From: Devosia sp. 67-54
Lineage (GTDB): Bacteria > Pseudomonadota > Alphaproteobacteria > Rhizobiales > Devosiaceae
NCBI RefSeq assembly: GCF_001899075.1
Contig: NZ_MKVA01000011.1
Span: 310,001-374,000 of the forward strand
Direction: 5' to 3'
DNA length: 64,000 bases
A model generated the notes under the pieces. It was not told where the DNA came from, did no database searches, and saw nothing but the letters and a program-made list of their open reading frames with translations. This document shows positions 51,081 through 57,227 of the stretch, piece by piece (positions within the stretch are counted from its first letter, which is position 1; each line of letters starts with the position of its first letter). The position numbers and the translations under genes were made by a program.

Positions 51081-52778
51081 TCACTTCTTCTCGCGGTCCT
51101 TGAGCGCGGCGCCCAGGATGTCGCCGAGCGAGGCGCCCGAATCCGACGAGCCGTACTGCGCCACCGCTTCCTTCTCCTCGGCGATTTCCAGCGCCTTGAT
51201 GGAGAGGGCGATCTTGCCGGTCTTGCGGTCGTACTGGGTGACGCGGGCATCGACCTTGTCGCCCTTGGCGAAGCGCTCGGGGCGCTGGTCGTTGCGGTCG
51301 CGGCTGAGGTCGGCGCGGCGGATGAACGCGGTCATCTCGCTGTCGGCGATCTTGACCTCGATGCCGCCATCGTTGACCTCGGTCACCGTGCCGGTGACCA
51401 CCGAGCCCTTGCGCAGGCCCTCGCCCGAGGCGTCCTTCTCGTCGCCGGTGCCCAGCTGCTTGATGCCGAGCGAGATACGCTCCTTGTCGACATCGACGTC
51501 GAGCACCTTGGCCTTGACGATATCGCCGCGGTTGTACTCGTCGAGCGCCAGTTCGCCCGGCTTGGTCCAGTCGAGATCGGAGAGGTGGACCATGCCGTCC
51601 ACGTCGCCGTCGAGGCCGACGAACAGGCCGAACTCGGTCTTGTTCTTGACCTCGCCCTCGATGGTCGAGCCGATCGGGAACTTCTCGGCGAAGCTCTCCC
51701 ACGGGTTCTGCAGCGTCTGCTTCAGGCCCAGCGAGATGCGGCGCTTGTCGGGATCGACCTCGAGCACCATCACCTCAACCTCCTGCGAGGTGGAGACGAT
51801 CTTGCCGGGGTGGACGTTCTTCTTGGTCCAGCTCATCTCGGAGACGTGGATCAGCCCTTCGATGCCCGGCTCGAGCTCGACGAACGCACCGTAGTCGGTG
51901 ATGTTGGTCACCCGGCCGGTGAACTTGGCGCCCACCGGATACTTGGCCTCGATGCCTTCCCACGGGTCGGCCTGGAGCTGCTTCATGCCCAGGCTGATGC
52001 GGTGGCTCTCGTGGTTGATGCGGATGATCTGGACCTTGATGGTCTCGCCGATCGACAGCACTTCCGACGGATGGTTGACGCGCCGCCAGGCGATGTCGGT
52101 GACGTGCAGCAGGCCGTCGATGCCGCCCAAATCGACGAACGCACCGTAATCGGTGATGTTCTTGACCACGCCGTCGACGATCTGGCCTTCCTCGAGCTGC
52201 TGCACGATCTCCGAGCGCTGCTCGGCGCGCGATTCCTCGAGGATGGCGCGGCGCGACACGACGATGTTGCCGCGGCGCTTGTCCATCTTCAGGATCTGGA
52301 ACGGCTGCGGCACGTTCATCAGCGGGCCGATGTCGCGGATCGGGCGGATGTCCACCTGCGAGCGCGGCAGGAACGCCACGGCGCCTTCGAGATCGACGGT
52401 GAAGCCGCCCTTGACCTGGTTGAAGATGATGCCTTCGACGCGCTGGTTGGCGTTGTACATCTCTTCGAGCTTGACCCAGCTCTCTTCGCGGCGGGCCTTC
52501 TCGCGGCTCAGCACCGCCTCGCCCATCGCGTTCTCGACGCGATCGACATACACTTCGACCTCGGACCCGACCTTGATGGTTCCGTCACGGCCGGCCTGGC
52601 CGAATTCCTTGAGGGCGATGCGGCCCTCGGTCTTCAAACCGACGTCGATGATCGCCAGATCCTTTTCGATCGCGACCACCGTTCCCTTGACGACGGCGCC
52701 TTCCATCGGCTCGTTGTCGAGGAAGGAGTCCATCAGCATGGACTCGAAATCGTCTTTCACTGCAGCTTGCGTAGCCAA
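51081..52778 (-). CDS. rpsA: Ribosomal protein S1
   Basis: mRNA-binding protein of the small ribosomal subunit, 565 residues with six S1 repeats (for example GAFVDLGGIDGLLHVTDIAWRRV and GAFVELEPGIEGLIHVSEMSW). The start is a TTG at 52778, giving MATQAAVKDDFESM, with GGAGAGAT directly upstream; a TTG four codons earlier overlaps that site. A 165-bp leader with several GC hairpins precedes it. Non-ATG start plus leader fits the autoregulation known for S1. Confidence 0.95.
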   Translation of the reverse strand: MATQAAVKDDFESMLMDSFLDNEPMEGAVVKGTVVAIEKDLAIIDVGLKTEGRIALKEFGQAGRDGTIKVGSEVEVYVDRVENAMGEAVLSREKARREESWVKLEEMYNANQRVEGIIFNQVKGGFTVDLEGAVAFLPRSQVDIRPIRDIGPLMNVPQPFQILKMDKRRGNIVVSRRAILEESRAEQRSEIVQQLEEGQIVDGVVKNITDYGAFVDLGGIDGLLHVTDIAWRRVNHPSEVLSIGETIKVQIIRINHESHRISLGMKQLQADPWEGIEAKYPVGAKFTGRVTNITDYGAFVELEPGIEGLIHVSEMSWTKKNVHPGKIVSTSQEVEVMVLEVDPDKRRISLGLKQTLQNPWESFAEKFPIGSTIEGEVKNKTEFGLFVGLDGDVDGMVHLSDLDWTKPGELALDEYNRGDIVKAKVLDVDVDKERISLGIKQLGTGDEKDASGEGLRKGSVVTGTVTEVNDGGIEVKIADSEMTAFIRRADLSRDRNDQRPERFAKGDKVDARVTQYDRKTGKIALSIKALEIAEEKEAVAQYGSSDSGASLGDILGAALKDREKK

Positions 52779-52943
52779 ATATCTCTCCAATCGCGCCCGG
52801 TAGCTGGTGTTGAGCCGGCCCGGCTTCGTCGCTCTGCCAAAGCAAAAGCGACCCGGTGCGCGAAAGCGCGAGCCAGCGATTTGATTGAAATGCCGCGGCC
52901 GGTCCTTGGTCGATGACGAAGGGGCGTTGCGGGAAAGGTTGGA

Positions 52944-53606
52944 TTAGAAGCCGTTCGGAGTGGTCGAACGCTTCGCCTTTCCGGCCAGAACCCCGTCGAC
53001 AATGGCGACGGCTGCGCGGAGTGCGGCGTCTATATCCAATCGCGTGGTGTCCAGCAAGTGGGCATCGGGCGCCGGATAGAAGCCGCCATGCGGGTTGGCG
53101 CGGTCGCGCGCATCCCGCTCCTCTATCTGGTGATAGAGGCCGTAGCGGTCAACCGCCTGGCCGCGCGCTTCGAGCTGGCGCGCCCGGCGCTCCATGCGCG
53201 CCTTGGAATCGGCCTCGATGAACAGCTTCACGTCGGCATCGGGGGCGATCACCGTGCCGATGTCGCGCCCGTCGAGCACGGCGCCGCCCGGCTGCAGCGC
53301 GAATTTGCGCTGGAAATCGTAGAGCGCCGCGCGCACCGGGCCGATCACCGCCACCTTGCTGGCGAGCGGCCCGGCCGCGGCGCTGGTGAGGCTGTCGCGG
53401 TCGCTGAGATGCGCCGGATCGAGCGCCTGCGCCGCCGCGATCGCCCGCGCCTCGAACTCCGGCGTGTCCACCGCCTCGGCCGCCGCGAGGCCGACGGCGC
53501 GGTAGAGCAGCCCGGTATCGAGATGCGGCAGCCGGTAGTGCCGCGCCAGCCCCAGCGCCAGCGTGCCCTTGCCCGACGCCGCCGGGCCGTCGACGGCGAT
53601 GATCAT
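52944..53606 (-). CDS. cmk: Cytidylate kinase
   Basis: Phosphorylates CMP and dCMP with ATP, 220 residues. P-loop DGPAASGKGT, substrate segment LDTGLLYRAV, LDGRDIGTV and the lid Arg residues (RMERRARQLEARG) are intact. Its ATG overlaps the stop of the aroA-position gene (ATGA), the classical aroA-cmk-rpsA operon. Confidence 0.96.
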   Translation of the reverse strand: MIIAVDGPAASGKGTLALGLARHYRLPHLDTGLLYRAVGLAAAEAVDTPEFEARAIAAAQALDPAHLSDRDSLTSAAAGPLASKVAVIGPVRAALYDFQRKFALQPGGAVLDGRDIGTVIAPDADVKLFIEADSKARMERRARQLEARGQAVDRYGLYHQIEERDARDRANPHGGFYPAPDAHLLDTTRLDIDAALRAAVAIVDGVLAGKAKRSTTPNGF

Positions 53607-54919
53607 GCCGCCGGACCGCCGGCGGCCGGGGCGCTCGAAAAGCTCGCCCCGACATGCTCGAAGGCGGTCACGAAATCGGGAAACAGCTCGGCCATCACGG
53701 TTCCGTCCTCGATGCTGACCGCGCGGTCGGCGGCCATCCCCAGCACGAGGAACGCCATCGCCAGTTTGGGGTCAAGCCGCGGCGCCACGTTTCCCCCGCC
53801 CGGCACCCGCTTGCTGCCGCGCACCAAAAGGCCCCCCTGCTGCTCGATGCAGTCGACGCCATTGGCCCTGAGCGCGCGGGTGAGCGCCAGCCGCCGCACC
53901 CCCTCGCCCAGCCCCTCGAAGCGGGTGTCGCCGGCGGCGAAGGCGGCCGCGACGCAGAGGATGGGGAAATCCTCGGCCGCGATGCCGAGTTCGGCCGGAA
54001 TCACCGCCCCCTGCAGCCCGCCATGCCGCACCACGATGTCGGCGCCGCCCTTCTGCGCCGCGCCGATGGCGATGTCGCCGCCCATCAGCGCCAGCGCATC
54101 GAACAGCGCGAGCCCGCGCGCCGTCAGCGCCACGCCGCTTAGGGTGAGCTCGGAATCGGGGGCGATCAGCGCCGCCACCGCCGGATAGACGGCGAGGTGC
54201 GGATCGCCCGGCACCGTCAGCGCCTGGGCCCGCAGCGGCGCCAGGCCCTCGAGCCCGAGGCGCAGCCCCGCCGCGTCCTCCTCGGCGCCGAGCCGCGCCC
54301 CGAAGGCGGCGAGCAGATCGATCGCCGGATCGTGGCTGCCGGCCGGCAGCGTGAGGCGCGAGCGGCCCACGGTCACCAGCGCGTTGAGCAGCAGCGGCGC
54401 CACCAGCCCCGCCGCCTCGGCCGGCAGCGCCAGGTCGAGCGGCACGCCGAAGCGCGGGCCGCAGAGCCGCATCTGCCCTCCGTCGCGCGCGATGCGGCAG
54501 CCATTGCGGCCGAGAAAGCCGAGCAGCGCCTCGCTCACCGGATCGGCCGGGGGCCCGTCGAGCACCACCTCCATGTCGTGCCCGGCGATGAGGCCGATGA
54601 GCAGCGGCGCCGCGGCGCCGGTTTCGGCCAGCGGCAGCGGCCCGGCGGGGGTGAGCAGCCCGCCCACCCCGAGCCCCTGCACGTGCCAGCGCGGCCCCGC
54701 CGGCGCGACGTAGGCGCCCAGCGCCCGCAGCACCTCGGCTGTCGCGGCCAGTTCGGGGGCCGGGCTCACGGTGTCGAGCACGCTTTCGCCGCGCGCCATC
54801 GCCGCCAGGATCAGCGCCAGCGCCGACAGCAGCGGCTCGCCGGGCAGCCGCATCGGCCCGCGCAGCCACGGCGACCGCTCGGCGCTGAGCGGCAGGGACG
54901 GAATCGACGCTTTGTTCAT
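53603..54919 (-). CDS. AroA-like protein lacking EPSP synthase motifs
   Basis: Protein of 438 residues in the usual aroA position, uninterrupted and coupled to cmk. Overall it follows EPSP synthase: VPGDPHLAVYPAVAALIAP, FPILCVAAAFAAGDTRFEGL and LAMAFLVLGM align well. The catalytic motifs are gone, though. PGDKSISHR is PGEPLLSAL (residues 26-34, losing Lys, Ser and Arg), NAGTGCR is ETGAAAP (99-105, losing the Arg), RPM is DPV, the KESDR block is shortened and changed, and DHR is DPK. Both substrate sites should therefore fail. It is most likely a pseudoenzyme or repurposed paralog; a functional aroA is expected elsewhere. Confidence 0.85.
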   Translation of the reverse strand: MNKASIPSLPLSAERSPWLRGPMRLPGEPLLSALALILAAMARGESVLDTVSPAPELAATAEVLRALGAYVAPAGPRWHVQGLGVGGLLTPAGPLPLAETGAAAPLLIGLIAGHDMEVVLDGPPADPVSEALLGFLGRNGCRIARDGGQMRLCGPRFGVPLDLALPAEAAGLVAPLLLNALVTVGRSRLTLPAGSHDPAIDLLAAFGARLGAEEDAAGLRLGLEGLAPLRAQALTVPGDPHLAVYPAVAALIAPDSELTLSGVALTARGLALFDALALMGGDIAIGAAQKGGADIVVRHGGLQGAVIPAELGIAAEDFPILCVAAAFAAGDTRFEGLGEGVRRLALTRALRANGVDCIEQQGGLLVRGSKRVPGGGNVAPRLDPKLAMAFLVLGMAADRAVSIEDGTVMAELFPDFVTAFEHVGASFSSAPAAGGPAA

Positions 54920-55091: not shown

Positions 55092-55505
55092 TTGGCCCAA
55101 GACCCACGCGGTACAAAGCGCGAAGACCCCGAGACCGGCAAGAAGTTCTACGATCTCAACAAGGATCCGATCGTCTCGCCCTACACAGGCAAATCCTATC
55201 CGCGCTCCTATTTCGAGCAGACCCTCGCCTCGCGCAAGGCGAACGAGCGCGACGAGGAGCAGGAGGACGAAGAGGACGTCGAGGTCGAGGACGTGACCAA
55301 GGCGCCCGACGAGCCCGAGGTCATCTCGCTCGAGGACGCCGATGCCGAAGAGGCCGGCGAGTCCGGCGACGAGGAAATCCCCGATGTCGAGGACGTCGAG
55401 GATGTCGAGGACATCGGCGACGACGACGAGGACGCTTTCCTCGAGGAAGACGAGGAAGAGGACGAGAACCTCGATTTCGACGTCGAGGGCGGCGACGAGC
55501 GCTGA
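55092..55505 (+). CDS. TIGR02300-family acidic protein
   Basis: Protein of 137 residues of a small alphaproteobacterial family (TIGR02300) of unknown function. The N-terminus GTKREDPETGKKFYDLNKDP and PIVSPYTGKSYP are diagnostic, although the Cys usually found near KR is Asp here. The C-terminal two thirds is almost all Asp, Glu and Val and likely disordered. The start is TTG at 55092 with GGGAAG upstream. It is a constant neighbour of aroA and tRNA-Ala in Rhizobiales. Confidence 0.85.
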   Translation: MAQDPRGTKREDPETGKKFYDLNKDPIVSPYTGKSYPRSYFEQTLASRKANERDEEQEDEEDVEVEDVTKAPDEPEVISLEDADAEEAGESGDEEIPDVEDVEDVEDIGDDDEDAFLEEDEEEDENLDFDVEGGDER

Positions 55506-55626: not shown

Positions 55627-55702
55627 GGGGCCATAGCTCAGTTGGGAGAGCGTCTGAATGGCATTCAGAAGGTCGTCGGTTCGATTCCGATTGGCTCCAC
55701 CA
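55627..55702 (+). tRNA. tRNA-Ala (GGC anticodon)
   Basis: Seventy-six bases with encoded CCA. Acceptor GGGGCCA pairs with TGGCTCC, D-arm AGCTCAGTTGGGAGAGC, anticodon loop ATGGCAT (GGC), T-arm GTCGGTTCGATTCCGAT. Its 3' part from 55665 also codes, in antisense, for the C-terminus of the recombinase, so it is the left attachment site of the mobile element. Confidence 0.96.
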
Positions 55703-57227
55703 CTCTTTCGCACAGCACCCTCAAGGTCTCTAAGACCTTGAACGGTAAGGCGGTTTCAGCGGTTCGATAGCCGGTCTTCCGGTCATAGGCCAGACGCTGA
55801 CCCCAAACGAGCTTCAGCACCGCCCGGCGATCCTCGACGCGCTCGGAACGCCATAGACGGCAAGGGTTTGCCAGGAACTCGAAAGCGGTTCGATAAGTCC
55901 GGCCGAAGGACGGTCCCGTCTGCGTCGTGGTCGCGATTTTTTCGTTCAAGACTGCCTTGCGCAATTCCAGGTCATGGATGCGCCTTTCATAGGCCGCGGC
56001 GAGTTGCGAGCTGGTGGCCTCCACGGCTCGGTCCAGCAGTTGTTCGACCTGGCCGTTCAACTGGCGTAGCTCCTGTTCCCAAAGCGTACGCCTCTGCTGG
56101 ATGTTTCCCAGCTTCATCTCCCACAACTCGCGGATCATCGCGAAGGCCGCGTGGAAGAGTGTTGCAGTCGGCTGCAAACTTGCCAGCATCACGTCGAACT
56201 CACCTTCGAGTTTTTCCTTGCGCACTGACTTGCGGTACTCGCCGCATCCGCGGGTATCGCAGAGATAATATGGGTAACGCTTCGACCGGCCCTTCGACCA
56301 GCAGGCCGTAAGAGGTTCACCGCAGCAGCCGCAGACGACGAAGTTGCGTAGCGGAAAGTCGGCGCTCAAATCCTTGCGGGCGGGCGCGTTTCTCACCCCT
56401 TGGCGCCGAGCGAGAATCGCCTCGTGCGTCTCCAGCGTGATGAGGGCTTCGTGCTGACCGCGCACAAGATGCAAGCCCCATGATTCGATGCTGAAGTATC
56501 CGGCATAGAGCTGGCGTGTCAGCAACTGCGCGATGTGCGACATGTGGACCTCGCCGTTCCGCGCTTTTGGGTAGGCCGGTTGCGCCTGAAGAAAGCGCTG
56601 CACTTCGGTCAGCGTCTGGAGCCGACCCGACGCATAACCATTAAGAGCCTCGGCGACGACCGACGCGACGGGTTCGTCGCGCACCAGCATTCTCCCATGC
56701 CCCGTGACATCCGCAAATCGATAGCCCACTGGAGGCAGGAAGAGCCAATAGCCCGCGCTGGCACGCGCGGTCATCTTCTGGACGACCTGTCGGCTGTTTT
56801 GCTTGCGTTCAAGCTGGCCCTGCGCAGCCAGCACCGTCTCGATGAATTCGCCCTCGGGCGTATCCTCGAAGCGGAAGTTCGGGCACTCGATGCTGGCGCC
56901 CCTCATCCTGAAGGCGTGACGCAGCTTGATGTGGAATTCTGTGTCGCGAGCAAAGCGCTTCAGATCGTCGAAGATGACGACATAGTTCTTTCGGCCGCGC
57001 TGCGCATCGAGATAGCTCAGCAACGCCACCATGCCGGGCCGCTTCATGAAGTCGCCGCCGCCCGACACATCGTCGGGGAAAACCGCCTCGACCTCACATC
57101 CGATCGACTGGGCATGGTGGCGGCAACGCGCCTCCTGCGATTCGAGTCCGTGCCCGTCCGTCGCCTGCTTCGCACTCGACACGCGGCAATAGATGAGGGC
57201 CTTGGTTGGTCTGGTTGGGGTCGTCAT
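55665..57227 (-). CDS. Large serine recombinase (integrase)
   Basis: Site-specific recombinase of 520 residues. The resolvase domain has IYCRVSSAKQ with catalytic Ser17 and Arg residues in FDDLKRFARD; the recombinase domain follows (PVGYRFAD, YAGYF), then a zinc ribbon near residue 300 (CGCCGEPLTACW) and a long coiled-coil part (about 370-430). The last 12 residues (EPIGIEPTTF and two Val) are encoded by antisense tRNA-Ala, and the stop lies in the tRNA anticodon arm. It probably inserts the element here; serine recombinases seldom use tRNA genes. The ATG overlaps the next gene's stop. Confidence 0.93.
   Translation of the reverse strand: MTTPTRPTKALIYCRVSSAKQATDGHGLESQEARCRHHAQSIGCEVEAVFPDDVSGGGDFMKRPGMVALLSYLDAQRGRKNYVVIFDDLKRFARDTEFHIKLRHAFRMRGASIECPNFRFEDTPEGEFIETVLAAQGQLERKQNSRQVVQKMTARASAGYWLFLPPVGYRFADVTGHGRMLVRDEPVASVVAEALNGYASGRLQTLTEVQRFLQAQPAYPKARNGEVHMSHIAQLLTRQLYAGYFSIESWGLHLVRGQHEALITLETHEAILARRQGVRNAPARKDLSADFPLRNFVVCGCCGEPLTACWSKGRSKRYPYYLCDTRGCGEYRKSVRKEKLEGEFDVMLASLQPTATLFHAAFAMIRELWEMKLGNIQQRRTLWEQELRQLNGQVEQLLDRAVEATSSQLAAAYERRIHDLELRKAVLNEKIATTTQTGPSFGRTYRTAFEFLANPCRLWRSERVEDRRAVLKLVWGQRLAYDRKTGYRTAETALPFKVLETLRVLCERVVEPIGIEPTTF

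Follow-up and report, generated by a model that had tools for sequence, protein, structure and literature searches.

An eroded class II EPSP synthase, probably a non-catalytic pseudoenzyme, is kept under purifying selection at the aroA locus of Devosiaceae that carry a class I AroA

What does the gene at an aroA locus encode when the residues that make EPSP synthase an enzyme are gone from its product? The question is raised by a locus within a 64,000-nucleotide stretch of the genome of Devosia sp. 67-54 (the window). A preliminary description, made from the sequence alone, had reported an open gene that aligns along its length with EPSP synthase, is coupled to cmk, and lacks the catalytic motifs, and had proposed a new role or a structural pseudoenzyme. 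All of the listed motif losses are present, the frame is open from start to stop, and the stop codon overlaps the start of cmk (Table 1). The FYDLN_acid gene lies divergently upstream, and cmk and rpsA follow downstream. No sigma-70-like promoter was found at the aroA locus, against 0.2 expected.

Table 1. Features of the pseudo-aroA locus (window coordinates)
Feature	Position	Strand	Remark
rpsA, ribosomal protein S1 (S1 repeats)	51081..52790	-	
cmk, (d)CMP kinase	52944..53606	-	
Stop/start overlap (ATGA) of pseudo-aroA with cmk	53603..53606	-	4 nt
Degenerate class II AroA (pseudo-EPSP synthase), 438 aa	53603..54919	-	ATG start, TGA stop, open ORF
DPK replacing DHR	53765..53773	-	residues 383-385; invariant in the four-genome clade
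EGVRR at the shortened KESDR loop	53891..53905	-	residues 339-343; Glu339 and Arg343 invariant in the four-genome clade
DPV replacing RPM, loop shortened	54536..54544	-	residues 126-128
ETGAAAP replacing NAGTGxR	54605..54625	-	residues 99-105
PGEPLLSAL replacing PGDKSISHR	54818..54844	-	residues 26-34
N-terminal segment PLSAERSPWLRG	54857..54892	-	residues 10-21; top-conserved 12-residue window of the genus's six copies
FYDLN_acid protein, divergent, conserved locus neighbor	55092..55505	+	TIGR02300-type according to the preliminary description

The 438-residue protein aligns nearly end to end with the CP4 EPSP synthase (2ggd; residues 7 to 427; E = 1.9e-58, phmmer), and the best Foldseek matches of its model are 2gg6, 2ggd, and 2gg4, which places it in the EPSP-synthase family fold. 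The gene encodes a class II (CP4-type) AroA without its former substrate contacts and occupies the native FYDLN/aroA/cmk/rpsA locus. The concern that it would be misannotated by homology as the target of glyphosate is partly borne out: Pfam would call it EPSP_synthase (PF00275; 113.3 bits against a cutoff of 22.8, residues 19 to 418), but it falls short of the aroA equivalog TIGR01356 (152.6 bits against a cutoff of 287.25). Adjoining the locus is a large serine recombinase gene (Resolvase, Recombinase, and Zn-ribbon domains; 55665-57227, minus strand), the 3' end of which overlaps a tRNA-Ala(GGC) gene (55627-55702, plus strand); this overlap suggests an integrated element that runs on into the rest of the window.

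Erosion of the active site was scored at 17 positions, named by motif and E. coli number and mapped onto the alignment columns by motif; some of them, for example Asn94, Gly96, and Ser169, we assumed to be catalytic-site positions. The others, namely, Lys22, Ser23, Arg27, Arg124, Gln171, Asp313, Lys340, Glu341, Arg344, His385, and Arg386, are given as catalytic residues in passages of PMC10305266 and PMC7144000, where several of the tabulated positions are named as ligand contacts (PMC10305266) and Glu341 as the acid/base (PMC7144000). With class II EPSP synthase the window copy has in common full-length homology, the locus, and the fold family, but it differs in keeping only 3 of the 17 positions, the columns of Gly96, Glu341, and Arg344, the last two at the KESDR loop, which is five residues short and where the alignment is ambiguous by a residue or so. 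It is extremely unlikely that the protein still acts as an EPSP synthase through an unusual site. The family fold, by sequence and by Foldseek, would allow it, and less eroded copies in the sister genus (13 to 15 of 17 positions) still constrain the old polar sites; however, the equivalents of Lys22, Ser23, Arg27, Arg124, Gln171, Lys340, His385, and Arg386 are all changed in the window copy, and the same genome has an intact class I AroA.

That second enzyme was found by searching the whole assembly (4.21 Mb, 12 contigs, 99.93% complete), which holds three PF00275 matches: MurA (L001), the class I AroA (L002), and the window gene. The class I gene lies on another contig (G000:C5:648348-649613), and its motifs are intact (PGSKSITNR, NAGTATR, RPI, VKECDR, and DHR), so the window gene is not the only aroA of the genome; had it been so, in a tryptophan/tyrosine prototroph, the pseudoenzyme reading would have failed according to the preliminary description. 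Few members of the class have a class I AroA of this type: it was found in 8 of 337 sampled genomes (E ≤ 1e-70), the window genome included, which suggests arrival by horizontal transfer. Six of the seven other class I genomes, which lie outside the order sample, have no second AroA above the cutoff; G780, described below, is one of the six. The seventh, G786 (L176/L206), lies outside the family and has, besides class I, a seemingly intact class II AroA at the cmk locus; it is a counterexample to the idea that class I strictly entails decay. Seven Devosiaceae genomes (G003, G006-G009, G104, and G106) carry another AroA type, 37 to 44% identical to the class I enzyme of the window genome; thus, AroA may have been replaced in the family more than once.

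The survey covered 136 Devosiaceae genomes, many of them MAGs; the 17 positions were tabulated for the 63 in which a class II AroA matched along its length, and the match in G132, which is split over two contigs, was excluded. All 25 tabulated copies in genomes without a class I orthologue keep 17 of 17 positions. The 38 copies from two class I-bearing genera (6 in the window's genus, 32 in a sister genus) keep 0 to 15, with 19 of them at 8 or fewer, and none keeps the Lys340 equivalent. Of the 19 genomes in the window's genus, 18 have a class I orthologue, and subtraction from the tally gives 75 of 75 for the sister genus; the one exception, G096, is a fragmented assembly that lacks a cmk match as well. 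The residues lost differ between lineages, and parsimony by eye on the gene tree (FastTree, in which long branches may attract) would put the independent catalytic losses at no fewer than five. Alignment with the same-locus genes of relatives revealed that the losses of the window copy are common to three relatives at 58 to 61% identity.

Several sister-genus copies are half eroded (G022, G023, G035, G036, G044, G066, G074-G077, and G084), with DDIP instead of DEYP, Gln at the Lys340 equivalent, and, in all but G074, Ala instead of Ser23; the old polar sites are still constrained in the two pairs fitted, and these copies are possibly an altered yet active enzyme. Among the matches listed from 397 sampled genomes of the order, no member of the window clade was found outside the family, the window scoring 759 bits and the next best of those matches 340. 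A scan of named genomes brought up Devosia nanyangense and, apart from that, just an ordinary Chloroflexi AroA. Three class II matches listed in the order search (G323, 1.1e-51; G476, 5.2e-57; and G143, 3.1e-48) are far weaker than most others and may be incomplete or degenerate copies from other families.

The class II gene is missing in 13 of the 19 genomes of the window's genus and in 43 of the 75 of the sister genus. In 12 of those 13 genomes, cmk starts 160 to 207 bp from the FYDLN match, and clean loss is therefore viable; in the 13th, G085, a contig edge falls at this place. One genome without the gene, G090, is nested inside the window clade (FastTree, four concatenated proteins). The absence of the gene in the genus, G090 included, and in the sister genus indicates that it is dispensable. 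The earlier proposal of a pseudoenzyme or new role stands in part: the residues are gone, the frame is kept, and purifying selection is measurable, but the gene is absent without a trace in 13 of the 19 genus genomes.

The open frame, considered as proof of function, was set aside as weak. The opposite strand of the GC-rich aroA stretch also holds long ORFs, and in simulated neutral decay the probability that one lineage has zero stops was 0.02 to 0.57, so an open frame alone says little. Better evidence is provided by the losses held in common with the three relatives and by codon models that reject neutrality. An ordinary pseudogene in neutral decay, open by chance, is accordingly a very unlikely explanation, although spurious long ORFs are common in such GC-rich DNA, a stop-free frame is not improbable for one lineage, and decay does occur elsewhere: G780, from another family of the class and with a class I AroA, has a truncated 230-aa AroA-like relic beside FYDLN (L207 2926-3618, minus strand), which is an independent, further decayed case. 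Against it, the frame is full in all four genomes with common losses, as far as their contigs reach, and ω is well below 1 in every fitted pair.

These ω values come from a pairwise codon model (F3x4, custom code), the dN/dS check that the preliminary description had called for. They range from 0.022 to 0.074 in eight intact pairs and from 0.044 to 0.203 in fourteen pairs from the two class I genera. Window-clade pairs give 0.037 to 0.072 (2ΔlnL of 129 to 224 against ω = 1) with saturated dS, from 3.9 to the ceiling of 8. That ceiling was reached in 3 of 12 fits (G000/G096, G000/G092, and G050/G058) and also in G021/G031. With dS fixed at 1.5 to 2, window-clade ω is 0.14 to 0.24. Neighboring genes have a dS of 0.75 to 1.9, and cmk or class I AroA 1.0 to 1.9; were dS like that of cmk or class I AroA, window-clade ω would be nearer 0.15 to 0.3. 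In less saturated pairs, every ω is likewise well below 1: 0.17 for G047/G046 (dS 0.44), 0.20 for G010/G082 (dS 1.06), and 0.13 for G050/G012 (dS 1.38). The other low-scoring pairs give a 2ΔlnL of 121.8 to 235.2 against ω = 1, which is rejected in every fitted pair of dead copies. Catalytic residues are thus lost and purifying selection at the protein level is retained, the combination by which a pseudoenzyme is recognized, and neither neutral evolution nor a broken frame, the marks of a pseudogene, was found in the window gene.

To locate the constraint, sites were classed from intact AroA only, by sequence variability and not by coordinates, into 134 core, 92 variable polar (surface-type), and 71 invariant polar sites. 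Sequence-based classes were used because the AlphaFold model of the window protein (three-sequence alignment; pLDDT 80.6, pTM 0.68), which has the family fold in each domain and an unreliable domain arrangement, superposes too poorly on CP4 for surface mapping (TM 0.44, rmsd 21.7). At invariant polar sites, ω rises from 0.002 to 0.033 in five intact pairs to 0.068 to 0.336 in eleven dead pairs; at core sites it is 0.007 to 0.016 in intact versus 0.028 to 0.140 in dead pairs, and at surface-type sites 0.07 to 0.15 versus 0.05 to 0.38. The old site has therefore undergone the greatest relative release, the core is relaxed too, and the surface-type sites are still constrained, with ω = 1 rejected for them in 11 of 11 dead pairs (2ΔlnL of 26 to 94). 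The formerly invariant polar sites of dead copies evolve at about the rate of surface-type sites. In two half-eroded pairs (G023/G022 and G035/G075; 13 to 15 of 17 positions kept), the old polar sites are still constrained (ω of 0.010 and 0.036), and these copies may be active.

A further reading is a new enzyme with the enolpyruvyl-transferase fold and a different substrate. In its favor, Glu339, Arg343, and Asp383-Pro-Lys385, near the old C-domain half of the site, are invariant in the window clade, as is Asp317. Against it, the four closest copies already show drift in the other half of the pocket, polar sites that used to be invariant change at roughly the surface-type rate, and the lineages differ in the residues lost; a new enzyme is therefore improbable.

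Conservation in the window clade is uneven along the protein, at 0.67 in the C-terminal-half domain versus 0.51 in the other domain, compared with 0.68 and 0.66 in intact AroA, within what we take to be the domain limits; this asymmetry is missing in two of six dead groups (G011/G039 and G021/G031). A second feature lies at the N terminus. Across the six copies of the genus, residues 10 to 21 (PLxAERSPWLRG) have a mean pairwise identity of 0.91 (overall 0.50), the highest of 423 twelve-residue windows, but across nine intact AroAs they come 412th of 420 (0.42). When the four closest copies alone are compared, the segment ranks 5th of 423, after those at 382-384 and 11. In the sister genus, degenerate copies have a different segment at that place (rank 38 of 415), and ERSPWLRG is specific to the window's genus. 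A nucleotide-level element at the N terminus was considered and rejected: fourfold sites are less conserved in the segment (0.40 of 75) than elsewhere (0.59 of 1016), so the constraint acts on the protein. G100 has the segment with 12 of 17 positions left, and the segment may therefore predate full loss.

The main rival to a pseudoenzyme is an operon passenger that is kept folded: the protein would have no function, its frame being maintained because broken translation hurts cmk-rpsA expression and its residues constrained only because a misfolded product is harmful. We consider this rather unlikely, although much of the locus fits it. A 4-nt overlap with cmk occurs in 14 of the 38 degenerate copies and a spacing of 0 to 23 nt in 17 more; 37 of the 38 frames are open, the exception being G062, the class I AroA of which is also split; and the best-kept positions in degenerate copies are core positions and glycines. 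On the other hand, 5 of the 38 copies are separated from cmk by 83 to 108 nt, clean deletion is tolerated, the surface-type sites are constrained, and an N-terminal segment conserved more than in the working enzyme is poorly explained by folding needs.

On balance, the window protein is best read as a pseudoenzyme that has been retained without catalysis and probably serves in binding or regulation. Such a role would account most simply for the constraint on surface-type sites and for the newly conserved N-terminal segment. In the scenario that we favor, with confidence somewhat above even, the presence of class I AroA would make the resident class II AroA redundant for EPSP synthesis, its catalytic site would then decay, in several lineages, and the folded protein would be retained under protein-level purifying selection. 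The dead protein would work by binding, as a non-catalytic scaffold or regulator, with the C-terminal-half domain and the PLxAERSPWLRG segment as its recognition surface. It would be translated together with Cmk and S1, and the likeliest candidate partners would be the operon products or enzymes of the aromatic pathway. A bolder version, which we put forward tentatively as possible but doubtful, is that a second, non-catalytic job, original or gained early, was laid bare by the class I takeover, in which case the dead Devosiaceae proteins would form a new regulatory family of pseudo-EPSP synthases and would fine-tune either the cmk-rpsA operon or the aromatic pathway. They might act as ligand sensors: in the window clade one half of the old site is lost, but Glu339, Arg343, and Lys385, close to its C-domain half, do not vary.

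The closest precedent already in print, going by the passages cited, is TyrA-AroF of Pseudomonas syringae, in which the fused EPSP synthase (AroF) domain has lost about 200 residues and a stand-alone EPSP synthase is attributed to LGT; its authors suggested that the AroF remnant might become a new regulatory domain (PMC1173090). In both cases, a resident EPSP synthase is disabled and a second one is present. However, the P. syringae remnant is a truncated fused domain in one species (PMC1173090), whereas the Devosiaceae proteins are stand-alone, full length, present in many species, and under measured constraint, with an N-terminal segment conserved more than in the enzyme. Another dead shikimate-pathway domain with a compensating enzyme is described, in the portions cited, for Candida albicans Aro1: the DHQase domain is inactive through active-site substitutions, the unrelated-type Dqd1 can compensate, and in the structures the DHQase domain mediates homodimer formation (PMC9074039). 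Unlike the window protein, this is a domain of a eukaryotic multi-enzyme and belongs to another pathway step (PMC9074039). Finally, a nonenzymatic job in an EPSP synthase relative is known from Populus PtrEPSP-TF, a transcriptional repressor according to the relevant part of a review (PMC8416159); it differs in an N-terminal HTH motif gained in plants, and Pfam detects no HTH-type N-terminal domain in the window protein. In the literature searched, mainly open licence, no report was found of a pseudo-EPSP synthase in Devosia or of a partner or phenotype of the window protein.

For annotation, these results are a warning that in these genera a Pfam match at the aroA locus does not necessarily denote an EPSP synthase or a glyphosate target. 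For the biology of the family, a single locus, compared across 63 related genomes that have or lack a second AroA, is occupied by working, half-eroded, and dead EPSP synthases. The Devosiaceae aroA locus is thereby a natural experiment on what stays under selection once catalysis is unneeded, and it points to the N-terminal segment and the C-terminal-half domain as candidate non-catalytic parts.
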